A stretch of 64,000 bases of DNA. It comes from Cytophagaceae bacterium. Lineage in GTDB: Bacteria; Bacteroidota; Bacteroidia; Cytophagales; Spirosomataceae. The notes under the pieces are model-generated. The model was not told where the DNA came from, made no database searches, and worked only from the letters and a program-made list of their open reading frames with translations. Location: NCBI GenBank assembly GCA_027491315.1, contig JAIXWL010000001.1, positions 248,001 to 312,000 of the forward strand, written 5' to 3'. Of the stretch, positions 20,222 through 50,621 are shown in pieces (position 1 is the first letter of the stretch; each line of letters starts with the position of its first letter). A program made the translations under genes and the position numbers.

Positions 20222-20878
20222 CTACAAGCTTATCCTTATAAAAGCACCTGTATTCAATTTTTCAGCCTTGAACGGTCCATAATAATCGAAGTTCATTCCG
20301 AGGCCATAGGTAAACTTTTGGCGACTTATACCCGCCCGAAATTGATATCCGCTACGGGCATGTATTCCCCCTTCAATCACTTGATTATACAAAACTTGGG
20401 CTCTCGTATACAGTCGGGTTTTAGGACTAAGCACAGGTTTGAATTCTACTAAACTCACAACCTCCATATTTGTGGTTGGTAAAAAACAAATATTGGGGGA
20501 TACCAAAAGCAACCAGGTTGGATTGGCTTTAAAATATTGTACTCCCAATATGGGTACTAATCCCAATTTAAAATGCCACTGTGCTCCAGCACCGGCCTTA
20601 AAATTGCTTCCTAAATCATAATTAATAGAATTTACGACTACAATCTCCGTTTCTTCATTTTTATTATGATAATCCACAGCGCCATTAGTCACGTTGAAAA
20701 AGGAGAATTTTCCCTTGGCATCGATGGGTTTATTGAGTATCAACTGGAAGTTCATGCGGTTATTTCCAAACATTACCTCTACAGGAATGGGAGCGGGTGG
20801 TGGACCAACTTGCTGAGCAATTAAGGAACTACTTCCCATGAGTAAAATTCCTAAAAATAATAAAAGACCATTTTTCAT
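20222..20878 (-). CDS. Predicted outer-membrane beta-barrel protein, unknown function
   Basis: I chose ATG at 20878 because it yields a clean signal peptide of about 21 residues ending SLIAQQ; an upstream in-frame start would add 20 residues lacking export features. The mature part of the 218-residue protein has alternating hydrophobic/polar strands and ends with an aromatic-rich segment and a final ISL, consistent with a small barrel. I do not recognise a named family. It lies downstream of the SusCD/cytochrome operon, 102 bp away on the same strand, so it could be cotranscribed, but this is not shown. Confidence 0.55.
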   Translation of the reverse strand: MKNGLLLFLGILLMGSSSLIAQQVGPPPAPIPVEVMFGNNRMNFQLILNKPIDAKGKFSFFNVTNGAVDYHNKNEETEIVVVNSINYDLGSNFKAGAGAQWHFKLGLVPILGVQYFKANPTWLLLVSPNICFLPTTNMEVVSLVEFKPVLSPKTRLYTRAQVLYNQVIEGGIHARSGYQFRAGISRQKFTYGLGMNFDYYGPFKAEKLNTGAFIRISL

Positions 20879-20980
20879 GGCGACAAATATAAAAAGGAAA
20901 AATGGGCAGTGAACTATATTCGGCCAACGAACAAGCATAAAGCGACAAAAACCAGAAATTAGCAGGATGAAATGGAATAA

Positions 20981-23152
20981 CTAATTGAAAAACATCTCGT
21001 CAACCAAAAATAAGGCTCGTTTATCTTTTGCGGGATGCCAACCAGGAATTTTCTCCAGTGGCTTAGCCACTATTTTGATGTATTTAACGTTGGCTGTTTT
21101 GAATTTTGTCCCAATCAAAGGAAGGGTATGCGGAAAATTTTCCTTAGGAATAATGGGTTTAAACTTGGTAATAAGCTTCCATTGATTCTCCACACTTGCC
21201 CCCCAAACTTCCACCAATTCCGGAGGGAAAATCCCCGTTTGAGTTTCAACCATGATCCTTAACTCTACCGAGGAAAGTGGAATGGCTTGTTTGAACATGG
21301 ACACTAATACTAAGTCATTATTTCTAACTCCCGCCCAATTATTTGCCCAAGCTGGACTATTGGCATTAAAAGTACCCAATCTACCATCAAAAAATGTTTT
21401 GGCACCCGCGGCTTGATGAACTCGGTTGAGTGGAGTCAATAAAACGGCACTATCAGGTTTAAAATGACCACGATAAAAATCAAAAATAGCCTCATCACTA
21501 CCTTTCCATCCCGGTTTAAAGGCCCTCGCCCGAATAGACGTATTCTGATTCAATCGTAAATTTCCAGCAAATACAGGCGACTGTGCGCTATCTGGTATAC
21601 TACCATCGGTGGTATATCGGATTTCCACTCCTTTAATCGGATGACCTAGCTGGGCCATGATAAACTCATCAAAAATGGTAGATGGATTTTTTACTTGAGG
21701 GGGATTAAGTTTCAATGGATTGCTTCCATCATCTTGGAATCCTCCTATGACTTGAATTCCTTTTACCTGTTTTTGAAGTATTTGAATATCTTCTCGACTC
21801 AACCCAGCATCCCAAACATAGACCTTCTTTAGGTTAGGGATGGCTTTCAAGGAATTAGCCAAGCCTGCTGCTTTTAACTTAGTTCCGGAAAGGGATAAAA
21901 CCATTAATTCTTTTAATCCATTCAATTCTTTCAATCCCGCTTCCGTGATATCGGTAAAATTCAGGTTTAACGTATGAAGGTGTTCTAGATCTTTTAAATA
22001 TGCCAAATCAGAATTCTGCACAGGCATTTTAGCGAGACTTAAGGTAACTACTTGTTCTTTGATCTCTTTAAGCTCCTCTAATTTTTGGGCTTTATATTGA
22101 GCCTTATTAAAAAAATTAACCGATAAAGCTGGCGAATCTTTAGCAAATAACATTATGGTTCGATACTCATTGGAAAGCTTTTGAATAGTCTCTTCATCTG
22201 CTTCTGGGAAATCATACACTTCTTCTTGCGGGCCAGCCGAAGCAAGAAGTTTAGTTGAAAATATCCGTAAAGAATCATTGGAGGCTAAATCCACCACTTT
22301 TTTAGTGAAGGAGGCTTTTTCCTTAACCCACCAAGTTAATAATTGCAATTCATCATCGCTTAACTGTGGCCTCCCGATTGGCGGCATATGTTTTTTGTCG
22401 TCTATGGACAAATGGGCACGCTGAATCAATAAACTCAATTCCGGCTTTCCGGCTACCCAAAGTGGTCCTGTTTTACCTCCCTTAGCCATGGACTTCGCAT
22501 CCGTTAATAAAAGCTCTCCTTTGATTTTATCTGGATTATGGCAAGCCACACATTTCTTTTCTAGAATAGGTTGTACTACATCTTGAAATACGACTGCTTC
22601 TTCCAAGGGCACTGATTGACTTTTAATCAAAGGCTCTAGGACAAAGTTTCCTCCATGAGTAAGATTCCCTCCAAAATGGCCCACTAAAACGAGCAGCAAG
22701 GCCATACCAATCGAAGTACTCTTGGCTATAGTGGCTTGATACCAATTCTTATTTCGAATCCAATATATCAGAGCTGCCAACACATAGGTGCTTACACCCA
22801 ACCAGCGATGCCAATATAAATCTCCTCCTCCGTAGCCAGGCTCTTTGGCAAGGAAAATACCCATAATAACCGTTATTCCAGCACTTAAGGCCCCAACAAG
22901 CAGCAGGTATTCTGTCAACTGAAGATAGGTCTTGTTTTCATGTAAGCTAGCTTGAAAACGGAAAAATTCCATGAACATAGCCAGTAATAACAAGACAATG
23001 GGGAAATGCAGAAGAAGTGTGTGCAGTCGACCGATTGGTTGCAAATACACCGGGATTTTTAATTCACTTTCGAATACCAGTAAAAAGCCTACAAAGAAAA
23101 AAGAGGCTAATAATATCTGTTCAAATATACCGGTAAGCTTACTGTTCTTCAT
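20981..23152 (-). CDS. Membrane-anchored DUF2231/cytochrome c/LRR/chitobiase-C-like fusion protein
   Basis: About 723 residues from ATG 23152 (a GTG three codons earlier is possible). Order of parts: a DUF2231-like block with four membrane helices (about 10-165); a planctomycete-type cytochrome c domain with heme motif CVACH (C201, C204, H205) and the downstream methionine in MPPIGRPQL; two or three leucine-rich repeats (about 365-445, LEHLHTLNLNFTDITEAGL); a chitobiase/hexosaminidase C-terminal-like domain (VEIRYTTDGSIPDSAQ, about 505-560); and a C-terminal beta region. This implies an inner-membrane electron carrier with a periplasmic binding module. It ends the operon, starting 9 bp after the DUF1501 stop. 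Confidence 0.8.
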   Translation of the reverse strand: MKNSKLTGIFEQILLASFFFVGFLLVFESELKIPVYLQPIGRLHTLLLHFPIVLLLLAMFMEFFRFQASLHENKTYLQLTEYLLLVGALSAGITVIMGIFLAKEPGYGGGDLYWHRWLGVSTYVLAALIYWIRNKNWYQATIAKSTSIGMALLLVLVGHFGGNLTHGGNFVLEPLIKSQSVPLEEAVVFQDVVQPILEKKCVACHNPDKIKGELLLTDAKSMAKGGKTGPLWVAGKPELSLLIQRAHLSIDDKKHMPPIGRPQLSDDELQLLTWWVKEKASFTKKVVDLASNDSLRIFSTKLLASAGPQEEVYDFPEADEETIQKLSNEYRTIMLFAKDSPALSVNFFNKAQYKAQKLEELKEIKEQVVTLSLAKMPVQNSDLAYLKDLEHLHTLNLNFTDITEAGLKELNGLKELMVLSLSGTKLKAAGLANSLKAIPNLKKVYVWDAGLSREDIQILQKQVKGIQVIGGFQDDGSNPLKLNPPQVKNPSTIFDEFIMAQLGHPIKGVEIRYTTDGSIPDSAQSPVFAGNLRLNQNTSIRARAFKPGWKGSDEAIFDFYRGHFKPDSAVLLTPLNRVHQAAGAKTFFDGRLGTFNANSPAWANNWAGVRNNDLVLVSMFKQAIPLSSVELRIMVETQTGIFPPELVEVWGASVENQWKLITKFKPIIPKENFPHTLPLIGTKFKTANVKYIKIVAKPLEKIPGWHPAKDKRALFLVDEMFFN

Positions 23153-23161
23153 ATAAAGCAC

Positions 23162-24619
23162 TTAACTAATGATATCTCGAACCACTTTTCCTGATACATC
23201 AGTTAAACGGAACCTACGACCCATATGTTTATAGACTAATTTTTCATGATCTAAGCCCAATTGATTCAATACAGTTGCTTGAAAATCATGTACATGGACT
23301 GGATTTTTTTGAACGTTATAGCCCAATTCGTCCGTTTCACCATATACCATACCAGGCTTAATGCCACCGCCGGCCATCCAAATACTGAAACAGCGTGGAT
23401 GGTGATCTCGACCATAATTTTCAATAGTCAATTTACCTTGACTGTAGCAAGTACGGCCAAACTCTCCGCCCCAAATGACTAATGTTTCATCCAACAATCC
23501 TCGTTGCTTTAAATCAGTAATTAAGGCTGCAGATGCTTGATCTGTATCTTTCGCCTGACTTTGAATTTCAAAAGGCAGATTTCCATGTTGATCCCAACCT
23601 TGGTGATATAACTGTACAAAACGTACCCCATTTTCAGAGAGTTTTCTAGCTAAAAGGCAGTTCGCCGCAAAGGTTCCAGGAACCAAACAGTCTGGACCGT
23701 ATAATTTGATGATATCATCCGACTCTTTCGACAAATCCATCACCTCAGGAACGGCGGTTTGCATGCGGTAAGCCATTTCATACTGCTTGACTTTGGCAGA
23801 AATTTCTGGATCTCCAAACTCTTGGTATGACAAATCATTGAGTTCCGCTAAATGGTCTAGCATCTCTCTTCTTTCTTTGCGACCCATGCCTTCTGGATCT
23901 CTCAGGTATAAAACAGGATCCTCTCCTTTGCTAAATTGTACTCCTTGGTGAATGGAGTCTAAGAAACCATTGGACCACAATTTTGAATATACCCCTTGCC
24001 CATTACCAATGCCACGTGAAAGTAATACAGTAAAGTCAGGTAAATTTTTATTCTCGTTTCCTAAACCATAACTCAACCAAGAACCCATACTAGGACGGTT
24101 TCCCTGCTGAGAACCCGTCTGAAAAAAGGTCAAGGCAGGGTCATGGTTGATAGCTTCTGTATACATGGACCGTATGATGCAAATATCATCTACAATCTTA
24201 GATGTATAAGGCATAATATCACTTATCCAAGCTCCCGATTGTCCATATTGTTTGAAATTTGTAAAGGAAGGCGCCAAAGGAAAACTTGCCTGATTGGCCG
24301 TCATTCCCGTCAAACGCTGCGAACCTCGTACAGAAGCAGGAAGATCTAAACCCATCATATCACAAAGTTTGGGCTTGTAATCAAAAGTCTCTAACTGAGA
24401 GGGTGCCCCATTTTGAAATAGGTAAATTACCCGTTTTGCTTTCGGGGCAAAATGAGGAATACCGGGTGTAAAATCTGCTCCATCTTGGTCGCCACCATTT
24501 AATAAACTAGGGACCAAAAGGGAGCCCAAGGCCACACTTCCTAGCCCTAGACTCATCGTAGATAAGAATCTTCTCCGATTAAAACTTAGCCCGTGTTCTA
24601 ATATCTCTTTTTCTAACAT
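23162..24619 (-). CDS. DUF1501 protein, copy B (Tat-exported, sulfatase/phosphatase-like fold)
   Basis: A 485-residue exported protein. A twin-arginine signal (NRRRFLSTMSLG, residues 14-25) precedes the DUF1501 domain. That family belongs to the alkaline-phosphatase-like superfamily and contains many planctomycete proteins. Visible landmarks are YLFQNGAPSQLETFDYK, LYHQGWDQHG, and VIWGGEFGRTCYSQG near the C-terminus. Substrate and reaction are not known for the family. It follows the 777-residue cytochrome protein by 4 bp and precedes the DUF2231 fusion. It is paralogous to the gene at 26957-28393. Confidence 0.87.
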   Translation of the reverse strand: MLEKEILEHGLSFNRRRFLSTMSLGLGSVALGSLLVPSLLNGGDQDGADFTPGIPHFAPKAKRVIYLFQNGAPSQLETFDYKPKLCDMMGLDLPASVRGSQRLTGMTANQASFPLAPSFTNFKQYGQSGAWISDIMPYTSKIVDDICIIRSMYTEAINHDPALTFFQTGSQQGNRPSMGSWLSYGLGNENKNLPDFTVLLSRGIGNGQGVYSKLWSNGFLDSIHQGVQFSKGEDPVLYLRDPEGMGRKERREMLDHLAELNDLSYQEFGDPEISAKVKQYEMAYRMQTAVPEVMDLSKESDDIIKLYGPDCLVPGTFAANCLLARKLSENGVRFVQLYHQGWDQHGNLPFEIQSQAKDTDQASAALITDLKQRGLLDETLVIWGGEFGRTCYSQGKLTIENYGRDHHPRCFSIWMAGGGIKPGMVYGETDELGYNVQKNPVHVHDFQATVLNQLGLDHEKLVYKHMGRRFRLTDVSGKVVRDIIS

Positions 24620-24623
24620 CAGC

Positions 24624-26957
24624 TTAGGTTCTAGTAATGGTTTCCTCTAAATTATAAATGGTATTAACCACACGCATTAAGGCCGCTAACAGTTGTCTAT
24701 CTACTTGATTAGGAATAGGATATTCCCCCACAGCCAATATTTTATTGGCTTGTTTCAAATTGATTTTCTTCAACTCTTTGCTATAATAAGTGGTCAAAAT
24801 AGTCAATTCCTTATCCGTAGGTTTTCGACAAACAATCAATCGGAATGCTTTTTTGATTTTATCAGGAACCTGATTATTTTCTTGTAAAAGCTTTGCCGCT
24901 AAAACTCGTGAAGCTTCCAGCACGGTTGGGTCATTCATCATAACCAAAGCCTGTAAAGGGGTATTGGTTTTCAACCTTCTTACCTCACAAACATCGCGAT
25001 TACTCGCGTCAAAAATACTCATGGTGGGAGGAGGAACTGTTCTTTTAATTAAGGTATACATTCCCCGACGGTACAAACTAGCCCCATGGTCTTGAACATA
25101 CATAGACAATAAACCGCGGCCTGAAGTAGCACCCTCCCATAATCCAGGTGGTTGATATGGCTTCACACTAGGTCCACCTACCTGAGGTACTAACAGACCA
25201 CTGCTAGACAAAACCACATCGCGAATGAATTCAGCATTGATACGTGAACGAGAAGAACGAGACAAATAGATGTTCTCTGGATCTTTGGCTAATTTTTCTG
25301 GGCTGAGTTTGGCTGACTGACGATAAGTGGCTGACATCACCATTTGCTTGACTAGGCGTTTGATATTCCAGCCATGCTCCATGAAGTCTACTGCCAACCA
25401 ATCCAATAAGGCTGGATTAGTAGGTAATTCTCCTTGCATACCAAAATCTCCCGCCGTTTTCACAATACCCTTACCAAAAAACTCCTGCCACATTTGATTC
25501 ACAAAAACGCGTGATGTTAAAGGATTTTTTCTGTCAAATAACCATTTGGTTAAACCAAGCCTATTCTTAGGCAAATTTTTAGCAAATGGCAAAATAACAC
25601 TCGGCATGGCTGGTTGAACTACATCGCCAGGGACATCATAATTTCCCCTTTTTAAAATAGTGCTAACACGCGGGGTATCTAAATCACTCATAACCGACAC
25701 GATCAATCGGGATGTATCCTGTTTATTGATAAACTTCAAAATCCCTTTGACATCTTCATTACTGATTTCCATCAAAGGCTTTTTGGCATAGGTTTCTGGA
25801 CCACCTATCACCGACTCTATCCCTACTTCCTTTACATTATTAAAAAAGGCAAATGTCTGGTAATAATCTTTCTGTGTAATGGGGTCATATTTATGGTCAT
25901 GACAACGAGCACATTCCATGGTCACCCCTAAAAATGCTTTTCCAAATAAATCGCTTCGGTCGGCCACATAACTGACCCGATATTCCTCTTGAATGACGCC
26001 CCCTTCTTCCGTAATTTTATGATTACGGTTAAAACCCGTGGCCAATAATTGCTCCTTAGCTTGCGCAGGATTAGAAGTTGGTACTAAATCCCCTGCCAAT
26101 TGCCACGTAACAAACTGACTGTAAGGAATATTTTTGTTGAGTGCATGAATGACCCAATCTCTCCAAGGCCATTGAGTACGATAGCCATCATCTTGATAAC
26201 CATGTGAGTCGGCATAGCGCGCTAAGTCCAACCAATACACCGCCATCTTTTCACCATAACTTGGATTTCGCAATAACTCATCCACCATTTTTTCATAGGC
26301 CTTGGGTGAATTATCCGCCAAAAAACGATCCATTTGGCTAATGCTTGGAGGTAAGCCATTAAGATCCAACGCGACCCGCTTCAATAAACGCTCTTTGTCG
26401 GCTTCCTCATTCGGGCTTAGGTCTTTTTGCTCCAATTTATGAAGCACAAAATAATCAATCTCATTTTTTACCCAGTCCTTCTGATCTACCTCGGGAAGTG
26501 CGGGTTTTTTAGGCGCCACAAATGCCCAATGCTTTTCGTATTTAGCACCCTGTTTAATCCATTTTTCTATTAAGTCTATTTCCCTCGCAGAAAGCTTCAG
26601 ATGCGATGCTTTAGGGGGCATCATTTTGATGGTATCCTCGGTAGTGATACGAAGAAAAACTTCCGATAATTCTGGCTTTCCAGGTACTAAAGCATAAGCA
26701 TTCGGATGCTCTTTCAATGCCTTAAATACACTAACGGAATCGTCTAGTCGTAAACCGGCTTCTCGTTTGTTGGCATCTGGTCCGTGACAAGCAGAGCATT
26801 TATCAGAAAGAATAGGCCGTATATCAAAATTATAACTGACCAATTCGGGTATTGGCTCTTCCTTTACTTGAGAAGCGCTACTTGAAGAGCATGCATCTAA
26901 AGTCAGAACAAAACCAAGTGCCAAACAATACGTATAAAAAAGGTAAATTCCTTTCAT
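24624..26957 (-). CDS. PSD1-type cytochrome c/DUF1549/DUF1553 lipoprotein, copy B
   Basis: A 777-residue protein with a lipoprotein signal (LDAC, Cys23). A cytochrome c domain with CSACH (C54, C57, H58) and the MPPKASHLKLS segment is followed by DUF1549 (about 155-360), which carries a second heme-like motif CARCHDHKYDPI, and by DUF1553 (about 490-740, with NPLTSRVFVNQMWQ and TYRQSAKLSPE). This architecture is a planctomycete/Verrucomicrobia hallmark. Its reaction is unknown, although oxidative attack on glycans or electron transfer to a partner DUF1501 protein has been suggested from gene pairing. The start overlaps the upstream stop by one base (TAATG). Confidence 0.87.
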   Translation of the reverse strand: MKGIYLFYTYCLALGFVLTLDACSSSSASQVKEEPIPELVSYNFDIRPILSDKCSACHGPDANKREAGLRLDDSVSVFKALKEHPNAYALVPGKPELSEVFLRITTEDTIKMMPPKASHLKLSAREIDLIEKWIKQGAKYEKHWAFVAPKKPALPEVDQKDWVKNEIDYFVLHKLEQKDLSPNEEADKERLLKRVALDLNGLPPSISQMDRFLADNSPKAYEKMVDELLRNPSYGEKMAVYWLDLARYADSHGYQDDGYRTQWPWRDWVIHALNKNIPYSQFVTWQLAGDLVPTSNPAQAKEQLLATGFNRNHKITEEGGVIQEEYRVSYVADRSDLFGKAFLGVTMECARCHDHKYDPITQKDYYQTFAFFNNVKEVGIESVIGGPETYAKKPLMEISNEDVKGILKFINKQDTSRLIVSVMSDLDTPRVSTILKRGNYDVPGDVVQPAMPSVILPFAKNLPKNRLGLTKWLFDRKNPLTSRVFVNQMWQEFFGKGIVKTAGDFGMQGELPTNPALLDWLAVDFMEHGWNIKRLVKQMVMSATYRQSAKLSPEKLAKDPENIYLSRSSRSRINAEFIRDVVLSSSGLLVPQVGGPSVKPYQPPGLWEGATSGRGLLSMYVQDHGASLYRRGMYTLIKRTVPPPTMSIFDASNRDVCEVRRLKTNTPLQALVMMNDPTVLEASRVLAAKLLQENNQVPDKIKKAFRLIVCRKPTDKELTILTTYYSKELKKINLKQANKILAVGEYPIPNQVDRQLLAALMRVVNTIYNLEETITRT

Positions 26958-28393
26958 TAGGCTTTTATCAATAAATCTTTGACTACTTGACCTTTACCAT
27001 CAGGTGTCGTGTAGAAAGGTCTTTTTTCAATTTCATACTGTGTATCAGGTTTGATTCCCAAAGCATGGTACATTGTTTGGTGAATTCCCGCAATTTTCAC
27101 TGGATTTTCAATGGTTTTACATGGCCTTTCATCGGCTGTTTTACCATAAACATGTCCTCGTTTAATGCCTCCTCCAAACATCAAAATAGAGCAGCCATCT
27201 GTAAAGTGACGATGCATTCCATAAAACTTCATATCATTCAGAATTTCTGGCTGATTCACCTGTTCTTTCACGGTTTGATCAGGGCGCCCTTCTACCATCA
27301 TATCTCTACTGAACTCTGAAGCCACAATGACTAAAGTTCTATCTAAATGGCCGGTTTTATCCAAATCTTTGATCAATTGAGATATAGGTCCATCAATTTG
27401 TTTTTTCATACCCGCCATGCGCGTATGGCCATTTTCATGGGTGTCAAAACCAAAGAATGGTTCGTATTCAGTGGTCACAGAAATAAATCGAGCTCCTTGT
27501 TCCGTTAATCGACGAGCCAAAAGACATCCTAAACCAAAACGGCCTGTATTGTAAATATCATAGCTTTCTTTGGGTTCAGAGCTTAAATTAAAGGCCTTCG
27601 ATTCCGGGGAATTCAATAAAATATAAGCCTGCTCCATAGAACGGCGAAGAGATTCTTTTTGATAATCACTGCCAAAATCTCCAAAAGGACTCTTACTGAT
27701 TAAATCATTGTATAACTTATTTCTGCTTTCAAAACGTTTCATGTTCATTCCTACAGGAGGGCGAACGCTGTCCAATCCCTGACTTGGATCTGGGATGAAA
27801 AATGGACCAAACTCATTTCCTAAAAATCCTGCCGAATGAAAAGCTTTTAATTCCTCCCCCTCACCTACGGTGAATCGCTGTCCAATGTCAATAAACGCTG
27901 GAATTACTGGATTTTTAGGGCCTAATTCTTTGGCTATCCAAGCTCCCATGTGCGGAGCCGCTACCGTTTGAGGTGGTTCATAGCAAGTATGCCAATTGTA
28001 CTGATGGCGCGTGTGTAAGATGTGACCTAAGTCGGCAGCTACATAAGAACGGATTAAGGTTCCTTTGTCCATCACACTTCCTATTCCTTCCAAACCTTCT
28101 GAAAAATGAATGCCATCCAGCTTAGTAGGTACCGATTTAAATGTACTTAAAACCCGATTCCCCTCCATACCTTTTTCATAGGGAGTATATCGTTTGGGAT
28201 CAAAGGTTTCCGTATGAGCCATTCCACCCGCCATCCAAAGTAAGATAACGGTATCCGCCGTAGCGGCCCTTTGGGCAATTGGATTATTAGAACCTGCGAG
28301 CAAACTTGCCATAGGCGAGTTCATTCCCATAGCTGCCAAAGTGGCCATGCTCGTATTCTGTAAAAATTCCCTTCTGTTATAATTCGTCTTCAT
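26957..28393 (-). CDS. DUF1501 protein, copy A (Tat-exported)
   Basis: I chose ATG at 28393 (two codons after a TTG), giving a 478-residue protein that begins MKTNYNRREFLQ, a short twin-arginine signal. DUF1501 landmarks are VILLWMAGGMAHTETFDPK, the histidine-rich DLGHILHTRHQYNWHTCYEP, and VIVASEFSRD, with GGGIKRGHVYG near the C-terminus. It is paralogous to the protein at 23162 but clearly diverged. The next gene, copy B of the cytochrome/DUF1549/DUF1553 protein, overlaps by one base, so the two are probably translationally coupled. The function is unknown. Confidence 0.86.
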   Translation of the reverse strand: MKTNYNRREFLQNTSMATLAAMGMNSPMASLLAGSNNPIAQRAATADTVILLWMAGGMAHTETFDPKRYTPYEKGMEGNRVLSTFKSVPTKLDGIHFSEGLEGIGSVMDKGTLIRSYVAADLGHILHTRHQYNWHTCYEPPQTVAAPHMGAWIAKELGPKNPVIPAFIDIGQRFTVGEGEELKAFHSAGFLGNEFGPFFIPDPSQGLDSVRPPVGMNMKRFESRNKLYNDLISKSPFGDFGSDYQKESLRRSMEQAYILLNSPESKAFNLSSEPKESYDIYNTGRFGLGCLLARRLTEQGARFISVTTEYEPFFGFDTHENGHTRMAGMKKQIDGPISQLIKDLDKTGHLDRTLVIVASEFSRDMMVEGRPDQTVKEQVNQPEILNDMKFYGMHRHFTDGCSILMFGGGIKRGHVYGKTADERPCKTIENPVKIAGIHQTMYHALGIKPDTQYEIEKRPFYTTPDGKGQVVKDLLIKA

Positions 28394-28425
28394 ATACAAA
28401 AATACAAGATATTCTATTTCAAAAC

Positions 28426-31215
28426 TTAGATAATTAATTGAAATTCAGGAAGTAGGGTAATAGCCCAAACAAAATCCTGAACTCCTTCTACTGTAGGCTT
28501 TTTGCCCAAGTACCTAATAGCCAATTCCATCTCGCGAGGACTCGGATTACGACCCAATGCCTGACGATACAAGGCATTTACCAAAGCGTCACTGGTAGCA
28601 TATTTAGCAACCCAAATCTTAGCGCCCGTATTTAAGGTATAATTAAATTTAACACCATTCGTCAATTCCAAAGCTTGTAATAAGTTAGCTTGTGAAGTTC
28701 TACTGGTAGAAACTGTCTCCCGGTTAGGTCTTCCTAAAGCCGTTAAGAATGGATCGTTTTTAACCAAAGCTGCCCGAGCAAAAGGAATTTCTTTCTTGAT
28801 ATCAGCTGGTAACATTTTTACAGCTAGAGCAGAATCTGAATATAAGGGGAAGAACGATTGACTCACGGCATCAGCAAATTGTTCCGCTGTTAAGCGTCTT
28901 TTCGTCATTCCTTTAAAGACATAATTGGAAGCTGTCAACATGGATACCTCTTTGAAGCCAACCGTCGGCAATTGGTAAGTTTTAGACGTCAAAATCTGAT
29001 ACATTAAACGCTTCATATCTGAACCATTATTGGCAAAATCATAGGCTAAGTAATCCAACAAATCCTGGCTCCATGGTTCATTATCCATCACATCCACTGG
29101 CTCCACAATTCCTCTTCCCATCAATTGAGCCCACACCCGATTCACCAAAGTACGGTATAGGCGGCCATTTTTCTTCTGAACTAAAATATCCGCTAATTGC
29201 ACTAAACGATCAGCAGTAATCGGGGTTTCTTTAATTTTACCTAAAGAATTATACAAAACACCTCGGCCAGCCATGCGGCCTGTAGGTAAGTCGCACTTAT
29301 GAATTTCTAAGGTTTGATCCGCAAAAACATTGGCAAAGGCATAAGCATCATCCAATTTCCAATCACTGATAAAACTGTCGTGGCAGGAAGCACATTTTAA
29401 ATTTAATCCTAAAAATACTTGAGCTACGTTTTGAGCCGCCTGCATCTCGGTACTTTGGCTAGAGTTGATGGTTCCTCTCCATTTAATTCCCTTAATAAAC
29501 CCTTCAGACTCTTTGCTTGGACTGATTAATTCCTTGACAAATTGCTCATAAGGTTTATTGTTTTTCAATGAACCATAAAGCCATTTGGAGATGGCAAATC
29601 GGCCACCCGTGATATAACCGGTTCCTGTATAATCATTCCGCAAAGCATCATTCCAGAAACTAAACCAATGCTGGGCATAAGCAGAATTATCGTTCAGTAA
29701 AGATTGAACTAATTGCTCCCTTTTGTTTGGACGCTTATCTGTGATGAAATTTTGGATTGCTTGTGGAGAAGGTAATAAACCTTGAACATCTAGATAAACC
29801 CGACGGATGTAGGTAGCATCATCCACTGGTTTTTTCCAAGCAATTTTATTTTTCTTGAAATATTGATCCACAAACAAATCAATGGGCTGCTGTGCCTGTG
29901 CATTAGCCGCAGGTAAATTAGGTAAGCGAGGCTCCAAGGCCGCAACTCGATACAAACTTTTTTCTGGACCTGTTGGCCAAGGAGCTCCTTGTTTAATCCA
30001 AAATTCGAGTAAGGCAATGTCTTCCTTGGTTAAACGCTTTCCTTTAGTAGGCATGGCATCATCATGACCTTCCGGCAATTTAACCCGACGAATGATATCA
30101 CTTTTCTCTGGATAACCAGCTACTAAAATAGGCCCGTTTTCACCCCCTTTAAACAGAAATTCTTTTTTGTCTAAACGAAGTTTTCCTTTGGTTTTGGTGG
30201 CATTATGGCAACTATAGCAATTATGGGCTAAGATGGTTCGAACTTTTATGTTCAATTCATCCACTTGATTCGCATTTAAAATTTGTGCGGCTGGACTTAC
30301 TGTGGCACTTTCTACTTCTTGAAAAGCAGCAGGAACAGGTCCAGTAGGTAGGTCATTGGAAACTGATAAATCTGTTTCCTCAGGCAAAGCTAATGGACGA
30401 GTGGTGTTGGGAGAATTAGGCCAAGGAGCGCCCTGCTTAATCCATGTTTCCAATACTTCAATTTCTGCTTTGGTCAGGCGCTTACCCTTGGTAGGCATAG
30501 CGTCATCATGACTAGCAGGTAATTTGATGCGATGAATGATATCGCTTTTTTCTGGATGGCCGATAATCAAGGCCTTTCCATTTTCTCCCCCTTTTAAGAC
30601 GTATTTTAATTCGTCAAGACGAAGTTTTCCTTTTACTTTTTTGGTACCATGACAACTGGTACAATGTTTTGTCAAAATACTTCTAGCCTCTATGGCTAAA
30701 GCTTCTTTCTGATCGACGTTGATGTCGCCTTGTAATTTTTTAACATCTATTTTAGGGGCTACCGAAGTAGAATCTTTGGCTATTTCAGGATTCCAAACAG
30801 AACTCAAATAATCGTCACCATGGGTTAACATGGCTCCATAATGTCCGGCAAAAGTTACGCCAAACACGGAAAGGATTAACAAGGCCCGGTAGGATTTGGT
30901 CTCATCCGCTTTAAAAGCTAATAAGGCCAAAGCTGCCAACACGAGGGTTGCAATACCCGACCATTGGTGCCAGACTACAGTATTACCTGCATAATCATCT
31001 TGATTGGCTAGTATTAAGCCGAAAGTCACTGCCAATAGCGCAGAAATACTTACGACCCAAAGCATCAAATGAATGGCAGGTTTAAATTGATTGGATGATT
31101 GCTTCCAAGAAATGGCTTCAAGCAGCAATACTACCCATAATAAACTTAGGGGGAAGTGAACAATCAGTGGGTGTAATCGACCCAAAAAGGTAATAAATTC
31201 AGTACTATTTTGCAC
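28426..31215 (-). CDS. DUF2231/double cytochrome c/DUF1549/DUF1553 membrane protein, copy A
   Basis: About 929 residues from GTG 31215. An open frame continues to GTG 31281, but that codon lies inside a strong hairpin, so the later start is preferred. The N-terminus has four membrane helices of DUF2231 type (GRLHPLIVHFPLSLLW). Two adjacent cytochrome c domains follow, with CTSCHG and CYSCHN, each ending MPTKGKRLT...WIKQGAPWP. Then come DUF1549, with a third CxxCH (KCASCHDSFISDW), and DUF1553. The duplicated heme domains are about 65% identical, so the duplication looks fairly recent. It is the first gene after susD in the operon. Confidence 0.85.
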   Translation of the reverse strand: MQNSTEFITFLGRLHPLIVHFPLSLLWVVLLLEAISWKQSSNQFKPAIHLMLWVVSISALLAVTFGLILANQDDYAGNTVVWHQWSGIATLVLAALALLAFKADETKSYRALLILSVFGVTFAGHYGAMLTHGDDYLSSVWNPEIAKDSTSVAPKIDVKKLQGDINVDQKEALAIEARSILTKHCTSCHGTKKVKGKLRLDELKYVLKGGENGKALIIGHPEKSDIIHRIKLPASHDDAMPTKGKRLTKAEIEVLETWIKQGAPWPNSPNTTRPLALPEETDLSVSNDLPTGPVPAAFQEVESATVSPAAQILNANQVDELNIKVRTILAHNCYSCHNATKTKGKLRLDKKEFLFKGGENGPILVAGYPEKSDIIRRVKLPEGHDDAMPTKGKRLTKEDIALLEFWIKQGAPWPTGPEKSLYRVAALEPRLPNLPAANAQAQQPIDLFVDQYFKKNKIAWKKPVDDATYIRRVYLDVQGLLPSPQAIQNFITDKRPNKREQLVQSLLNDNSAYAQHWFSFWNDALRNDYTGTGYITGGRFAISKWLYGSLKNNKPYEQFVKELISPSKESEGFIKGIKWRGTINSSQSTEMQAAQNVAQVFLGLNLKCASCHDSFISDWKLDDAYAFANVFADQTLEIHKCDLPTGRMAGRGVLYNSLGKIKETPITADRLVQLADILVQKKNGRLYRTLVNRVWAQLMGRGIVEPVDVMDNEPWSQDLLDYLAYDFANNGSDMKRLMYQILTSKTYQLPTVGFKEVSMLTASNYVFKGMTKRRLTAEQFADAVSQSFFPLYSDSALAVKMLPADIKKEIPFARAALVKNDPFLTALGRPNRETVSTSRTSQANLLQALELTNGVKFNYTLNTGAKIWVAKYATSDALVNALYRQALGRNPSPREMELAIRYLGKKPTVEGVQDFVWAITLLPEFQLII

Positions 31216-31240
31216 AGAAATGTTTGTTATAATAGGTTTA

Positions 31241-31301
31241 AATCTTTGTGTTGCCGAGGCTTGGAGAGCAAGTCCAAGCACTCGGCAATTTTACAAAGAT
31301 T
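31241..31301. repeat. 61-bp inverted repeat between susD and the cytochrome operon genes
   Basis: The stem is built from three paired blocks: AATCTTTGT (31241-31249) with ACAAAGATT (31293-31301), TTGCCGAG (31251-31258) with CTCGGCAA (31281-31288), and GCTTGGA (31259-31265) with TCCAAGC (31273-31279), around a GAGCAAG loop. No T-run follows on the minus strand. It is a likely intra-operon attenuator, processing site or mRNA stabiliser separating SusCD from downstream expression. Confidence 0.8.
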
Positions 31302-31320
31302 AATCTAAATAAAAAATCCC

Positions 31321-32823
31321 TTAGTTATACCCTGGGTTTTGGGTTAATTTACTGTTAATCAAAATTTGAGGAGCAGGAATAGGTAGGTAATATTCAAAAT
31401 CAGAATATACATAATCCAAAGCGTTGAAGGCAATTCCTCCTCTTGAAACGGTAGGATTTGCTTTTTCTCTAGCTCCATGAGCATTCATAAATGCCGTCAA
31501 TTCAGAAGGAGTCATGGTTCTTTGTAAATCAAACCAGCGGTGATTTTCAAAGGCTAATTCTACACGACGCTCTTGCATGATAGCTGCACGTAAACCTTCT
31601 TTGGATAAACCTGCCAATTCAGCCAATCCAGCTCTTTTTCTTACGGCATTCACATACCCTAATGCTTCGGCTGTTGGTCCAGCTGATTCATTGATTGATT
31701 CAGCTAACATCAATAATGCATCGGCATAACGTAACACCGGCCAGTTATTATCCGAGCGACCAGAAATGGTGTGCGGATATTGGTATTTAGCTACGAATGG
31801 AATACCAACAAAAGTACCATTCAAGGTATATCCTGTTTTCAAGGAAATATCTTTACGCAAGTCTCCCGCCTCATAGGCGTTGATCATATCACGAGTAGGA
31901 ATATTTCTACCACTTGGCGTAGTATTTGCGTATCCTGTTACAGCACCTTGAGATAAACGAGGTGCAAACACATAAACAAAGTTACTTTGCTCACCTAAGT
32001 CGTTACCTCCTTGATATTGAACTTCAAAGATGGACTCAGGCCCATTTTTCCTAGCTGGATCAAAGTTGTCTTTGTAATTAGCATTCAAAGAATACCCTAA
32101 GCTCAAAATATCTTTTAAGGTAGTAACTGCAGCTGAATAGTTCTTTCTAGTTAAATATACTTTTCCTAGCAATGCCACAGCAGCTCCTTTGGTAGCCTTT
32201 CCTCTTCCTGAAGCAGGATATGAAGCAGGTAATAATTTCACTGCATCACCCAAGTCTGTTTCAATCTGCTTGTAAACCTCAGCTTGAGGAGAACGCACTA
32301 AATCAAATGACTCATTAGGATTTGATAAAGTCTTCGTTGCTAAAACCACATCTCCGAAATAACGCGTTAAGTTGAAATAATGGTAAGCGCGTAAGAATTT
32401 CAATTGCCCTTCAATGGATCCCTTAGCCGTTGCATCTATGGTAGAAGTAGCTAATTTTTCCAAGGCATAATTGATGTTGTACATCGTTGCATAATGGTTA
32501 TTCCAAAGCGTATTGATTTCTCCATTTCCTTGATTAACCGTTGAGAATTCAAATGCCTCCCAACCAGCTGCACCTCCACGATCCAATGGATTGAAGTCTA
32601 GCGTGGTATTGTCTGACATAAATTCCTGCTGAATATAGGCCGAGTTGGTGATCGTTTGCAATTGACCATATATTCCATTCAAAGCTTGATTGAATTGAGT
32701 TTCGTTTTGATAAAACAAATCTCGACCAATCCTCGTAGGGTCTGTTGTCGTCAAAAAGTCTTCTTGACAAGAAAACTGAATGAAGCAAAAGGATAATAAT
32801 ATTGAAGCTGTTATTTTTTTCAT
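31321..32823 (-). CDS. SusD/RagB-family surface glycan-binding lipoprotein
   Basis: A 500-residue protein with a lipoprotein signal ending IQFSC (Cys19). The N-terminal TPR-like SusD region includes FNQALNGIYGQLQ and YNINYALEKL, and the C-terminal block reads RYADALLMLAESINE then ERRVELAFENHRWFDLQRT, all diagnostic of SusD. It sits on the cell surface and delivers ligand to its SusC partner, encoded 10 bp upstream. The ligand cannot be predicted from sequence. In this operon the next genes are cytochrome/DUF1501 proteins, not glycoside hydrolases. Confidence 0.94.
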   Translation of the reverse strand: MKKITASILLSFCFIQFSCQEDFLTTTDPTRIGRDLFYQNETQFNQALNGIYGQLQTITNSAYIQQEFMSDNTTLDFNPLDRGGAAGWEAFEFSTVNQGNGEINTLWNNHYATMYNINYALEKLATSTIDATAKGSIEGQLKFLRAYHYFNLTRYFGDVVLATKTLSNPNESFDLVRSPQAEVYKQIETDLGDAVKLLPASYPASGRGKATKGAAVALLGKVYLTRKNYSAAVTTLKDILSLGYSLNANYKDNFDPARKNGPESIFEVQYQGGNDLGEQSNFVYVFAPRLSQGAVTGYANTTPSGRNIPTRDMINAYEAGDLRKDISLKTGYTLNGTFVGIPFVAKYQYPHTISGRSDNNWPVLRYADALLMLAESINESAGPTAEALGYVNAVRKRAGLAELAGLSKEGLRAAIMQERRVELAFENHRWFDLQRTMTPSELTAFMNAHGAREKANPTVSRGGIAFNALDYVYSDFEYYLPIPAPQILINSKLTQNPGYN

Positions 32824-32833
32824 TTCTGTATAA

Positions 32834-35800
32834 TTAGAAGTTTAATTTAACACCAAGAGCCACTGTTCTAGGAACTGGATATGACTCATCGTCATTGTTC
32901 AATTCCGTTCCACCTCTAACACCTGCGTCCGGGTTATTTCCTGGGTAATTGGTAAATAAGAATAAGTTATTCGCAGTTAAGAATACTCTAGACTCGCTGA
33001 ATATATTGCTCATTTTAGGAAGTTTATACCCTAAAGTCACTGCCTTTAACCAAACATAACTTCCGTCATATACATAACGCTCACTACTTTCACGAGACCA
33101 CTTGAAATAACTAGTTCCTCCTTGTGAGTTTTTGTCATTCGGATTGGTACCTGGATTAGTAGCCGATCTCCAACGATCTTTGGCTTTATCTAATACGTTA
33201 AACACACCGTCCATGTTCATGGTAGATGCTTCAATATTACGGTAGATATCAAAATCTTGAGCTCCTACAAATAATACGTTCAAATCCCATTGACGGTAAT
33301 CAGCTGCCATGGTCCAAGCCCAAGTAAAGGCAGGATTTGGATTTCCAATTTCAGTCATGTCTTGTGTATCATATGAAATAACACCATCTCCGTTCATGTC
33401 TTTGAACTTCATTCCGCCAGGAATTACACCATCTTGCTTAGCCCAAGCATCAATTTCTGCCTGAGTATTGAAAATGCCTTCTTTTCTGTAACCGTAAATC
33501 ATACCAATCGGACGACCCACTTTCATGACGTTATACCCACCATAAAAACTACCATACCAAAGTATGTCATTGGCTCCTTTGATGGCCAAAATTTTACTTT
33601 GGTTCATCGTTAAGTTCATGTTAGTTCTGAAATTCACAGGACCAAAACTAGTGCGATAATCTGCGCTTAATTCAACCCCTGTATTTTGAACCTGACCAAT
33701 GTTGTCCAAACTGGTAGTAAAACCAGAAACCGCTGGAATCGAAACTGGTAATAACATATCGTTGGTTACTTTCTTGTAGTACTCAAAAGTGAAGGTCAAC
33801 TTATTGTTAAACGTGGCTAAATCTAAACCAATGTCCAACTGATCTGATTTTTCCCATTTCAAAGAAGAGTTAGCAAAGTTGCTAATCACTTTACCTGGTG
33901 CAAAACTGTTTCCTAAGATGTAGTTATTTGCCCCTACGAATGCCAAGCTTGGATAGTTACCAATGTTATTGTTACCTGTAACACCCCAGCTCGCACGAAT
34001 TTTCATGTCATTGATAAAGCTGATATCCTTCATGAAAGGCTCTTCTGAAATTCTCCAACCTACCGATGCTGCTGGGAAATCTCCAAACTTATTATTCTCT
34101 CCAAAACGAGAGCTTCCTTCTCTACGGAATGAAGCAGAGAAAAGGTATTTATCTTTTAATGCATAGTTTACACGAGCAAAATAGGCTAATAAAGACCAGC
34201 TATACTCATAAGAGTTAGATGAACGGATAGATCCAGCACCTAAATAAGGAACTAAGTCATCTGGAAATGTATTGGCAGAACCATCAATGCCATATACTTG
34301 CTCTTTTTGAGAAGTAAAACCTAGCATTGCATCCAATTTATGGTCTTCTCCAATTTTTGGAGAATATGTCAATAACTCATCAAAAGAAACGTTTTGTAAT
34401 TGCTCAGAAATATCACGAGCTGTGGCTATCCTTGGTGGCGCACCAGCTGTTCCTGAAGCTACAGAAGCTCCAATGGTAGAGGGCACAAACTCCTTGAAGC
34501 GGTTAAAGTTCATTTTTCCATTGATGGAAGATCTAAATTTCAAACCATCAAGAATGGTAAACTCAGCAAAAGCATTCGCCAAAACATCGGATATATTTCT
34601 TTTACGAATAACATTTTGTAATAAAAATACTGGATTAGGGAAACCAAAAGCTCCATCCACACCTCCGATATAAGGTCGCATCGATCCGTCTGCATTATAA
34701 ATAGGCTCACGTGGATCCATCAATAATGCGCCACCTACTAAGGCACTGCGACCATCTGTATTCGCTACATTTTGACGAGTCAAACTTCCGTTGACATTTA
34801 ATCCAACAGTTAAAAACTTACTCACCTGACCACCGTTATTTGAACGAATAGAAATACGATCATAATCGGTATTCATGATAGCTCCATCTTCCTTGTAGTA
34901 ACCTACAGAAAACATGGATTTAATTGGCCCTTTACCTGAACTAATGGTTAGGTTGGCATCTTGATATGCCGAATTCTTATTCAGGATAGCACCAAACCAA
35001 TCTGTAGAATATTTAGTCTGCTCAGGAAAACGATATCCTAGCGGAACCTCCTCAATAGATGGCTCTCTTTTTTGTAAAATACGGATGGCATCCATGAAAA
35101 CATCTTTCTTGAATTGCGCAAACTCCTGGCCTGTCAACATTTTCACACGACGAGAGTCAGGAATGGAGTTAACTCCATAGTCTACAGAAAAATTTACATT
35201 CACTTTCCCTTCTTGCGCATTCTTGGTAGTAATTAACACTACCCCGTTTGAACCCCTTGCACCGTAAATTGCCGTAGAAGCAGCATCCTTTAATACGGAG
35301 ATACTTTCTATGTCATTCGGGTTAAAGTTAGCACCTACGGATGTACCCACAGGGAAACCATCGATTACATACAAAGGATCACTACCAGCTCCCAAAGAAC
35401 CTATACCACGAACTCGAACCTCAAAAGCTCCACCCGGTGTTCCGGCTTTTTGCTTTACCACAACTCCGGATGCACGGCCTTGTAATAATTGGTTCATGTT
35501 ATTGGCAGGTTGTTCTCCAATATCCTTCATACCGATGACAGAAACGGCTGAAGTAATATCTTGCTTTCTTTGGGAACCATATCCCACAACAACCACTTCA
35601 GTTAATTCTTTTTGATTTTCTTCTAAAAGGACATCGATTACCGTACGGCCTTGAACGGCTTCTGACTTAGGTAATAAGCCTACTGAAGAAAAATTTAGAA
35701 CGGCATTTTTGGAAGAAACTCGGATCGAGTACTCTCCATTTGCATTGGTAACTGCACCGTTGGTCGTTCCTTTCTCCAACACCGAGGTGCCAGGAACGCC

Positions 35801-35902
35801 TACTCCTCCGGTAGTGCTAACCTTACCTCGGACTTGCACACTTTGAGCAAGTCCTTGGTAAACCAGGAGCATACAAAAAATTAGTAATGATAGTTTTTTC
35901 AT
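32834..35902 (-). CDS. SusC/RagA-family TonB-linked outer-membrane transporter
   Basis: About 1022 residues from ATG 35902. A longer frame exists, but this start gives a proper signal peptide ending YQGLAQ. A carboxypeptidase-D-regulatory-like domain (about 22-100) is followed by the SusC signature ELTEVVVVGYGSQRK, the plug (LLQGRASGVVVKQ, YVIDGFPVG, VLKDAASTAIYGARGSNGVVLITTK) and the barrel, ending in ALGVKLNF. It imports an oligomeric substrate with energy from TonB. It heads a seven-gene operon and has a 390-bp divergent upstream region with an inverted repeat at 36070-36102. Confidence 0.95.
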   Translation of the reverse strand: MKKLSLLIFCMLLVYQGLAQSVQVRGKVSTTGGVGVPGTSVLEKGTTNGAVTNANGEYSIRVSSKNAVLNFSSVGLLPKSEAVQGRTVIDVLLEENQKELTEVVVVGYGSQRKQDITSAVSVIGMKDIGEQPANNMNQLLQGRASGVVVKQKAGTPGGAFEVRVRGIGSLGAGSDPLYVIDGFPVGTSVGANFNPNDIESISVLKDAASTAIYGARGSNGVVLITTKNAQEGKVNVNFSVDYGVNSIPDSRRVKMLTGQEFAQFKKDVFMDAIRILQKREPSIEEVPLGYRFPEQTKYSTDWFGAILNKNSAYQDANLTISSGKGPIKSMFSVGYYKEDGAIMNTDYDRISIRSNNGGQVSKFLTVGLNVNGSLTRQNVANTDGRSALVGGALLMDPREPIYNADGSMRPYIGGVDGAFGFPNPVFLLQNVIRKRNISDVLANAFAEFTILDGLKFRSSINGKMNFNRFKEFVPSTIGASVASGTAGAPPRIATARDISEQLQNVSFDELLTYSPKIGEDHKLDAMLGFTSQKEQVYGIDGSANTFPDDLVPYLGAGSIRSSNSYEYSWSLLAYFARVNYALKDKYLFSASFRREGSSRFGENNKFGDFPAASVGWRISEEPFMKDISFINDMKIRASWGVTGNNNIGNYPSLAFVGANNYILGNSFAPGKVISNFANSSLKWEKSDQLDIGLDLATFNNKLTFTFEYYKKVTNDMLLPVSIPAVSGFTTSLDNIGQVQNTGVELSADYRTSFGPVNFRTNMNLTMNQSKILAIKGANDILWYGSFYGGYNVMKVGRPIGMIYGYRKEGIFNTQAEIDAWAKQDGVIPGGMKFKDMNGDGVISYDTQDMTEIGNPNPAFTWAWTMAADYRQWDLNVLFVGAQDFDIYRNIEASTMNMDGVFNVLDKAKDRWRSATNPGTNPNDKNSQGGTSYFKWSRESSERYVYDGSYVWLKAVTLGYKLPKMSNIFSESRVFLTANNLFLFTNYPGNNPDAGVRGGTELNNDDESYPVPRTVALGVKLNF

Positions 35903-36069
35903 AATAAGAGGTTTGAGTTTGGTTATAAAAGGTTGAATAAAAGCTGCTTCATAAATAGAACTATTCATAGAAACAATAATATTATAAAGTACAACTAACT
36001 CATTTGAGCATAGTCAACCATCCTTAACTATCCTTATAAATTTATGAAGCTGTTTATTGTATCTTTTTG

Positions 36070-36591: not shown

Positions 36592-37179
36592 ATGACAGAA
36601 AACTCAGTCTTGAACAACATAAAAAAACTCATCCACTTGACGGAGGCTGAATGTACATTGATAGAAAGTACCTGGAGAAGAGTGAAACTGAATAAAAAGG
36701 ACTTTTTGTTTGAACGAGGAGAGGTAAGCAAAGATGCAGCCTTAGTCATTTCAGGTTGTTTAAGATCCTTTTCTGTGGATGAAAATGGATTTGAACACAT
36801 CATGCAATTTGCTCCTGCCAATTGGTGGATAACTGATATGTACAGTTTTATTTCACAAAAACCAGGAGATCTGAGTGTTCAAGCCATCATGGACTCAGAA
36901 GTCATGCTCCTCAGTCGAAAAGACCAATTAATGCTTTTTGATCAAATACCCGCCTTAGAAAGATATTTTCGGATATTAACAGAAAACTCATTGGTTGCCT
37001 ATCGACAAAGGCTCATAGATAATCTTAGTCTAAGTGCTAAACAACGATATGCTAATTTTTGTCAGACTTTCCCATCATTAACCAATGATATCCCCCAAAA
37101 ACTTGTTGCAGCCTACATAGGGGTTACCCCCGAATTCCTAAGTAAAATGCGAAGCGAATACCTTCGTAGCCTATCCTAG
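36592..37179 (+). CDS. Crp/Fnr-family transcriptional regulator
   Basis: A 195-residue regulator. Residues 15-115 are a cyclic-nucleotide-binding-like beta roll (KKDFLFERGEVSKDAALVISG). The C-terminal part carries a short helix-turn-helix (VAAYIGVTPEFLSKMRSEYL, about 172-191). Many small Bacteroidota relatives respond to no known nucleotide, and the ligand here is unknown. It is 2 bp after the Dabb gene and close to the divergent SusCD/cytochrome operon, making that operon a plausible target. Length is slightly short for the family but complete. Confidence 0.87.
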   Translation: MTENSVLNNIKKLIHLTEAECTLIESTWRRVKLNKKDFLFERGEVSKDAALVISGCLRSFSVDENGFEHIMQFAPANWWITDMYSFISQKPGDLSVQAIMDSEVMLLSRKDQLMLFDQIPALERYFRILTENSLVAYRQRLIDNLSLSAKQRYANFCQTFPSLTNDIPQKLVAAYIGVTPEFLSKMRSEYLRSLS

Positions 37180-48297: not shown

Positions 48298-48309
48298 GTG
48301 TATTTTGTT

Positions 48310-50013: not shown

Positions 50014-50016
50014 AAA

Positions 50017-50523: not shown

Positions 50524-50621
50524 TTTAAATTTTATGGCTGAAATTTGAATGAAATCAGTTGGAAAATTACCATTAGCTGCCCTGATTTCATTCAAGAAAT
50601 TCGTATGTGAAAATGTAGTGC

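Follow-up and report, generated by a model that had tools for sequence, protein, structure and literature searches.

A conserved SusCD-linked operon of PSCyt/PSD1 heme proteins and DUF1501 proteins in Aquirufa and related Cytophagales

Results and Discussion

Gene content and layout of the operon

The 64,000-nucleotide stretch of DNA analysed here, which we call the window, comes from a freshwater bacterium whose genome groups with Aquirufa (closest named relatives Aquirufa nivalisilvae, A. aurantiipilula and A. rosea), and from 35902 down to 20981 on its minus strand it carries an operon of seven tightly packed genes, identified from an open reading frame (ORF) list and Pfam (Table 1). In order, these encode SusC, SusD, PSC951, DUF1501b, PSC2a, DUF1501a and a DUF2231/PSCyt1 protein, where PSC951 is our label for the third gene (DUF2231/2xPSCyt1/PSCyt2/PSD1) and has been kept despite a revised length of about 929 aa. 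The seven minus-strand genes and the main domains named in a preliminary description of this DNA are thus borne out by the ORFs and Pfam. For the seventh gene, the DUF2231 and cytochrome domains stand, but the leucine-rich repeats reported there are uncalled by Pfam (E 0.001), and a chitobiase_C/Fn3_assoc region had gone unmentioned. Pfam scores are strong for DUF1501 (509 and 249 bits), PSCyt2 (290 and 164 bits) and PSD1 (330 and 132 bits), as they are for SusC and SusD; both DUF2231 matches are weak yet over the Pfam cut-off (33.8 and 27.5 against 26.4 bits).

The genes are closely packed: the gaps are 10 bp between SusC and SusD and 26 bp between PSC951 and DUF1501b, followed by a 1-bp overlap, 4 bp and 0 bp. 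The SusC start at 35902 is correct: relatives keep its ATG but lack the ORF start at 35968. The PSC951 ORF opens with a GTG at 31281 that sits within the hairpin between susD and PSC951, and the GTG-CAA-AAT at 31215 is common to both Aquirufa clades; the PSC951 start is therefore likely 31215, which leaves a gap of about 105 bp after SusD. Three PSC951 matches within the genus (L015, L017, L019) were listed with an in-frame TAA. At two of those places (L058 and L043) the ORF is open, at 932 and 928 aa, so that the listed stops may precede the true start, as with the revised start in the window.

Homologues of susC and susD are adjacent, as in Sus-like loci, and two PSCyt1-PSCyt2-PSD1 proteins each lie beside a constant partner, DUF1501, as in PSCyt/PSD clusters. 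Pfam found no carbohydrate-active enzyme among the seven genes, in keeping with the earlier remark that the operon lacks a glycoside hydrolase (GH); in 25 SusCD-linked loci of relatives, rhamnosidase profiles gave nothing above 100 bits, other GH families not having been scanned systematically. Relatives without orthologous SusCD have GH78, GH106 or GH28 beside PSC951. The window SusD has 33 PDB matches at or below E 1e-5, the best at 6e-57, from which no substrate could be assigned.

No adjacent extracytoplasmic-function (ECF) sigma/FecR pair or hybrid two-component regulator was seen by the window susC, one small intervening ORF being unscanned. The next regulator gene 5' of the operon (36592-37179) encodes a cyclic-nucleotide-binding domain, and ECF/FecR genes are found at the loci of some relatives.

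Table 1. Features of the operon and its immediate flanks, in gene order.
Feature	Coordinates	Strand	Basis or remark
Operator-like direct repeat TAAGGATAGT/TAAGGATGGT	36016..36036	-	5' of susC
SusC/RagA TonB-dependent outer-membrane transporter	32834..35902	-	Pfam Plug and barrel; TIGR04056 814 bits (cut-off 368)
SusD/RagB lipoprotein	31321..32823	-	Pfam PF07980, PF14322
RNA hairpin, susD/PSC951 intergenic (predicted)	31241..31301	-	Folding z-score and covariation
PSC951: DUF2231 membrane domain, two PSCyt1, PSCyt2 (DUF1549), PSD1 (DUF1553)	28426..31215	-	Pfam
DUF1501b, Tat-like signal (NRREFL), Ala where DUF1501a has Ser	26957..28399	-	Pfam, alignment
PSC2a: PSCyt1, PSCyt2 (DUF1549), PSD1 (DUF1553)	24624..26957	-	Pfam
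DUF1501a, Tat-like signal (NRRRFL), putative AlkP/sulfatase-like fold	23162..24619	-	Pfam, model
DUF2231, PSCyt1, chitobiase_C/Fn3_assoc protein	20981..23161	-	Pfam
Small protein after the operon	20222..20938	-	Present in 5/5 close-clade loci L034-L038
YncE-like propeller and phosphoesterase protein, possible operon tail	17694..20117	-	Pfam; 4/5 close-clade loci L034-L038

Conservation of the SusCD linkage

PSC951 has matches in 45 of 99 relative genomes (E 1e-30), some of them to the DUF2231-PSCyt1 part alone, and we examined 30 neighbourhoods from relative genomes together with 80 named loci, 13 of which were dropped for having less than 4 kb upstream, leaving 67 evaluable. An orthologous SusD (63-97% identity) lies on the same strand directly 5' of PSC951 in 25 of the 67: six from Aquirufa and relatives known as metagenome-assembled genomes (MAGs), two from Runella, four from Larkinella, two from Spirosoma, one from Rudanella, nine from Dyadobacter and one from Adhaeribacter. 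Seven genera thus share orthologous SusCD before PSC951. The complete seven-gene order is found in Aquirufa, Runella, Spirosoma and Rudanella, and in Adhaeribacter the second half of the operon precedes SusC. The remaining 42 evaluable loci are without an orthologous SusD directly upstream. In the reverse search, the SusD orthologue occurs in 23 of 99 genomes (E 1e-120), beside PSC951 in 20; in two of the others (G001, G043) the two genes are at the ends of contigs, and the last (G056) gave no match to PSC951.

In a tree of PSC951 with 68 rows, of which 26 are SusCD-linked, the linkage label requires 12 changes against 21 in shuffles, so we take the linkage to be inherited, having been lost or gained repeatedly. 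The distances of SusD and of PSC951 track each other (r 0.845, 24 loci); the correlation is 0.898 between DUF1501b and PSC951 and just 0.672 between DUF1501b and SusD. Of the 78 named loci that extend to another ORF past PSC951, 76 have DUF1501b immediately next, all but L114 and L128. Together, the distances and this pairing indicate that PSC951-DUF1501b is a tight core, that SusCD is a long-standing but separable partner, and that PSC2a, DUF1501a and the DUF2231/PSCyt1 protein form a second module.

DUF1501b is followed in Dyadobacter, Larkinella and one Spirosoma by another SusCD, a paralogue with 36-40% identity (L075, L084, L092, L093, L095-L098, L101, L103-L105, L109, L110, L121, L130, L136). 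Most such loci continue with a protein of 889-983 aa, and the one scanned, from L096, has a C-terminal cytochrome c.

Breadth across Bacteroidota and within the host genome

Across the phylum, a PSCyt2-PSD1 profile matches 37 of 296 genomes (E 1e-40) and 26 of 140 genera. Among 40 PSCyt2 neighbourhoods chosen from 35 of the 37 matching genomes, orthologous SusCD lies upstream in one, the full operon of a Runella (L144). Elsewhere we found an unrelated SusCD downstream (L146), a SusC-like gene upstream (L179) and merely weak or partial SusCD matches (L151, L153, L163). At 1/40 loci, SusCD linkage was rejected as a general rule for Bacteroidota PSCyt2 genes. The preliminary description would have counted a lack of conserved linkage between SusCD and DUF1501/DUF1553 genes in related genomes as its refutation; that refutation fails, the linkage being kept in seven genera. 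The linkage is true for one Cytophagales group (25/67, 20/23), not for Bacteroidota at large.

The 2.92-Mb host genome has five PSCyt2 genes in four places, 13 SusD genes and nine GMC oxidoreductases. Each of the three other PSCyt2 places consists of PSCyt2 and DUF1501 with a separate PSCyt1 protein close by, and none has SusCD in the same run, L003 having a SusCD pair on the opposite strand.

Features of the encoded proteins

All 46 aligned proteins keep the CxxCH motifs of PSCyt1 and PSCyt2 unchanged, and PSCyt1 also has an invariant Met that could be an axial ligand. In DUF2231, His37, 42, 105, 147 and 154 are kept in 77-79 of 80 PSC951 proteins and in 20-21 of 21 members of the DUF2231/LRR group, a pattern that would fit b-heme or copper held within the membrane. 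Together, the invariant heme motifs and these five histidines suit electron transfer to a membrane site, and so agree with the role proposed in the preliminary description, in which electrons would pass through the heme domains to DUF2231.

The DUF1501 N-terminus resembles a twin-arginine translocation (Tat) signal, R15, R16 and F18 being nearly invariant, and TatC is present in the host genome. AlphaFold models of DUF1501a and PSC2a are poor, with mean pLDDT (predicted local distance difference test) values of 55 and 63. Nevertheless, in Foldseek the DUF1501a model matched 35 PDB structures with an E of at most 0.001 (probability 0.97-1.00, best E 1.4e-5), all of them sulfatases, alkaline phosphatases or members of the lipoteichoic-acid-synthase/YejM type, at template-modelling (TM) scores of 0.2-0.4. 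DUF1501 thus looks like a member of the alkaline phosphatase (AlkP)/sulfatase superfamily by fold. A sequence search of the PDB gave no credible relative for DUF1501a or PSC2a (best E 0.16 for both). As candidates for a metal site and nucleophile, the acidic or His residues E/D77, D80, D343, H345, E386 and H407 are kept in both DUF1501 groups, whereas Ser74 of DUF1501a is replaced by Ala in all 27 readable rows of DUF1501b. The chemistry of one of the pair may hence be different or lost.

The hairpin after susD and upstream operators

The hairpin that the preliminary description placed between susD and the third gene is real: the segment at 31241-31301 has a predicted folding energy of -32.9 kcal/mol (z -6.45), and 5 of its 24 pairs are changed on both sides among 5 distinct sequences. 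A z-score of -3 or lower occurs within 160 nt of the susD stop in 36 of 42 SusCD-PSC951 loci (near-copies included), and comparable hairpins follow 14 of 19 paralogous SusD genes, but lie at the ends of 5 of 40 PSC951 and 16 of 73 DUF1501b genes. We therefore take the hairpin to be a common SusCD feature in these genomes; that it is peculiar to this operon was rejected, since paralogous SusD genes carry one too. Its position is conserved and its sequence differs among genera. A measure based on perfect arms (9 of 34 loci beat 100 shuffles) was dropped as too strict and replaced by the folding z-scores. The hairpin may let the transporter and the downstream genes differ in expression level, and it is neither proof nor exclusion of a single transcript.

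The operator-like sequence AAGGATAGTT has 26 matches in about 3.2 Mb of loci (some stretches counted twice), 25 of them immediately 5' of susC, either in Aquirufa or in its MAG relatives (two placed by SusC position). In the window it forms a direct repeat, in the sister clade a perfect inverted one. A scan for sigma-70-like promoters was at chance level (48 found against 50.5 in shuffles), with a model unsuited to Bacteroidota.

Rhamnose genes beside the same pair in relatives

In some loci without orthologous SusCD directly upstream, PSC951 is adjoined by rhamnose genes. L069 reads RhaT, GH78, an isomerase-like gene, GH78, RhaM, PSC951 and DUF1501; for it and L058, RhaT was called by Pfam (under the NCBIfam cut-off), one GH78 by Pfam and the other by similarity, and the isomerase-like protein is arabinose-isomerase-like. 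One MAG holds two PSC951-DUF1501 copies, one SusCD-linked (L070) and one in this rhamnose cluster (L069), whose proteins are 96.2% and 99.6% identical. RhaEW lies directly 5' in two Spirosoma loci, L084 (NF006191 1344 bits, cut-off 1240) and L086 (an 80% homologue). GH106 adjoins PSC951 on its 5' side in L113 and L120 and is two genes away on that side in L142, each of these loci having an isomerase-like protein 69-71% identical to one in L184, where weak Pfam fucose/arabinose isomerase ends fall one just above and one just below cut-off. The sole SusCD orthologue without PSC951 is followed by the L184 isomerase-like protein and GH43. GH28 lies upstream in L044, with an 84% homologue in L046.

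As a control for chance, we used 50 of the 67 genomes, in which GH106 was matched 267 times (counting fragments separately) and rhaM 136 times. At up to 5 kb from PSC951, GH106 was seen 3 times against 0.53 expected (P 0.016) and rhaM once against 0.28 (P 0.24); within 7.5 kb the two together were seen 6 times against 1.13 expected (P 0.001), namely GH106 in L108, L113, L120 and L142 and rhaM in L069 and L142.

In Spirosoma, a divergent GntR-type gene stands here in L081, L084, L085, L086 and L089 (86-88% identity to that of L084). The motif GTATAGGAAAG has 8 matches in the roughly 3.2 Mb of loci, 6 of which lie 78-103 bp ahead of either rhaEW (L084, L086) or susC, the latter belonging to the upstream pair in L081 and L089 and to the downstream pair in L081 and L084. 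If mismatches are allowed, the downstream SusC genes in L086 and L089 have it as well.

Oxidative genes beside the operon in the sister clade

In the sister Aquirufa clade, Gluconate_2-dh3, a GMC oxidoreductase and an SMP-30 lactonase precede the operon on the same strand, 203-318 bp before SusC in L039, L041 and L057. GMC genes occur in 8 loci (some places counted twice), and a GDSL esterase ends several of the operons. In L042, which has no SusCD at that place, the lactonase is 21 bp from PSC951. Pfam found neither the GMC flavoprotein nor its small subunit in the window operon; the window has a separate GMC unit at 48310-50595. It belongs to a row of genes at 47449-51536 on the minus strand, about 11 kb from the operon, comprising a xylose-isomerase-like gene, a GMC oxidoreductase, Gluconate_2-dh3 and a second xylose-isomerase-like gene, which is likely a keto-sugar unit.

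A tentative model and its alternatives

Our tentative reading, which may well prove wrong in part, is that the operon is a sugar-uptake and periplasmic-processing locus of Spirosomaceae-type bacteria, whose likely substrate is a rhamnose or 6-deoxyhexose oligosaccharide; we regard a rhamnose-glycan function as the most testable new hypothesis to come from it. Consider how such a pathway might run. SusCD would import an oligosaccharide, most likely with L-rhamnose or another 6-deoxyhexose, to the periplasm. There the Tat-exported DUF1501 proteins would, if the modelled fold is right, remove or transfer an ester group, and the PSCyt1-PSCyt2-PSD1 proteins, predicted from their motifs to bind two or three c-type hemes, could perform a redox step or serve as an electron relay. 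DUF2231, with its five conserved histidines, would hold the heme proteins at the inner membrane and hand electrons on to the respiratory chain. In favour of this reading stand the two-way SusCD linkage with its correlated distances, the PSC951-DUF1501b pairing, the heme motifs and DUF2231 histidines, the fold matches of DUF1501, TatC in the host genome, the rhamnose genes of relatives with the shared Spirosoma motif, the RhaEW homologue and GH106 genes of the host, and the sister-clade GMC dehydrogenase, small subunit and lactonase.

Several observations weigh against this model. A rhamnose gene (RhaM, RhaEW, RhaT, GH78 or GH106 above 100 bits, a GH106-like match of 78 bits in L097 being uncounted) lies within 2 kb of PSC951 in just 6 of 67 loci (L069, L084, L086, L113, L120, L142) and within 8 kb in three further ones (L073 at 7.8 kb, L108 with a GH106 at 5.3 kb, and L133); all five are missing from the available flanks of the 25 SusCD-linked loci. 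Other PSC951 neighbours are unrelated (peptidases, glycosyltransferases, penicillin-amidase- and beta-lactamase-like proteins). The enrichment is modest and post hoc, and L113 and L120 belong to the same clade and are not independent, which makes it a lead and no proof. Within the window operon, Pfam found no rhamnose gene, dehydrogenase or glycosidase; the Spirosoma motif GTATAGGAAAG is absent from the window, and the Aquirufa operator AAGGATAGTT has no exact copy in the host rhaEW region (L191). The host genome does hold a RhaEW homologue (74%) and two strong GH106 genes, so it may use rhamnose, although nothing in the window ties the operon to that sugar. On the protein side, the DUF1501 model is of low confidence (pLDDT 55, TM about 0.3), DUF1501b, without the conserved Ser, might not be an enzyme, and the all-helical PSC2a model found nothing in Foldseek at E 0.001.

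A second possibility, which we consider rather doubtful, is that oxidation of the imported oligomer is the work of the heme proteins themselves, with DUF1501 in a purely assisting role and electrons leaving via DUF2231. The invariant heme motifs and conserved DUF2231 histidines speak for it, as do 3-keto-disaccharide hydrolase and Gfo/Idh neighbours in some relatives, and the GMC dehydrogenase and lactonase of the sister operons give the best support for an oxidative step feeding electrons to PSCyt/DUF2231. At the same time, DUF1501 is AlkP-like, the PSCyt2-PSD1 fold has no match, and the conserved core contains no known dehydrogenase. The preliminary description had favoured oxidative processing by two enzyme couples. 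The sister GMC, small subunit and lactonase favour an oxidative step, but the couples themselves look different: given the AlkP/sulfatase fold, from which we infer a hydrolase role, each is more likely a hydrolase with a heme protein than a pair of oxidases.

It is unlikely, in our judgement, that the operon serves the use of a sulfated or esterified glycan, with DUF1501 proteins as glycan sulfatases or esterases and the nearby cytochromes unrelated in role. The AlkP/sulfatase fold would fit, and PSC-DUF1501 pairs do keep such company: in other Bacteroidota, PSCyt2-DUF1501 pairs have seven (L150) and five (L177) sulfatase-like ORFs nearby by a two-sequence profile, a sulfatase occurs in L044 and an FGE-sulfatase-family neighbour in L043, and the available text of PMC5615132 places sulfatase genes near PSCyt genes in freshwater Verrucomicrobia. 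The window operon, however, is without a Sulfatase-family gene, and the near-strict pairing of PSC951 with DUF1501b (76/78) argues against an unrelated cytochrome.

Chance neighbourhood or recent shuffling without functional coupling might be read into the 42 loci that have no orthologous SusD directly upstream, but it is very improbable, because gene order and orthologous SusCD are kept in relatives of seven genera, the linkage is reciprocal in 20 of 23 genomes, and it clusters on the tree (12 changes against 21).

Relation to known systems

The operon resembles Bacteroidota polysaccharide utilization loci and other Sus-like systems in having susC and susD in tandem, with genes for exported proteins after them on the same strand, and in the hairpin after susD. 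It differs in its processing proteins, which are PSCyt2/PSD1 and DUF1501, no glycoside hydrolase or lyase having been found. PSCyt/PSD clusters are known from Planctomycetes and freshwater Verrucomicrobia, in the parts of PMC5615132 and PMC2754498 available; these likewise have PSCyt and PSD in one protein, and a neighbour of unknown family is usual for their PSCyt2 genes. Sulfatases near this pair in some relatives are a further likeness. Here, by contrast, the pair is tied to SusCD, in one Cytophagales group, and a double PSCyt1 is fused to DUF2231.

FAD-dependent GMC sugar dehydrogenases of the glucoside 3-dehydrogenase type have a Gluconate_2-dh3 subunit. The sister Aquirufa operons match them in having a GMC protein, a small subunit and a lactonase, whereas the window operon has none of these and its cytochromes are PSCyt proteins. 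Cytochrome c is an acceptor for such dehydrogenases, glucoside 3-dehydrogenase among them (PMC9915066, available part). L-rhamnose catabolic loci with RhaEW are described in the accessible portion of PMC3870299; PSC951-DUF1501 lies in or beside such genes in some relatives, but the window operon has no rha gene.

The operon is a real, conserved type, and we found no earlier description of a SusCD-PSCyt/DUF1501 operon in the open-licence literature searched; the available part of PMC5888151 names DUF1501 and SusD as separate table entries, not as one operon. Among annotated plasmids, a search brought up five distant records. Genera with named strains (Spirosoma, Dyadobacter, Runella, Larkinella and Aquirufa) carry the conserved SusCD operon and so provide organisms for testing, and the rhamnose genes beside the same pair in relatives offer a concrete substrate class to test. 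A bolder proposal, that this is a distinct type of uptake locus in which heme/AlkP-fold pairs wired via DUF2231 replace glycoside hydrolases on an imported rhamnose oligosaccharide, strikes us as improbable as it stands; if true, it would let a role be assigned to the large PSCyt/DUF1501 families found in Planctomycetes and Verrucomicrobia.

Genes downstream of the operon

The small protein encoded at 20222-20938 is without a match in Pfam or NCBIfam. Its slot, as seen in the close Aquirufa clade, is occupied in the sister clade by a GDSL esterase instead.

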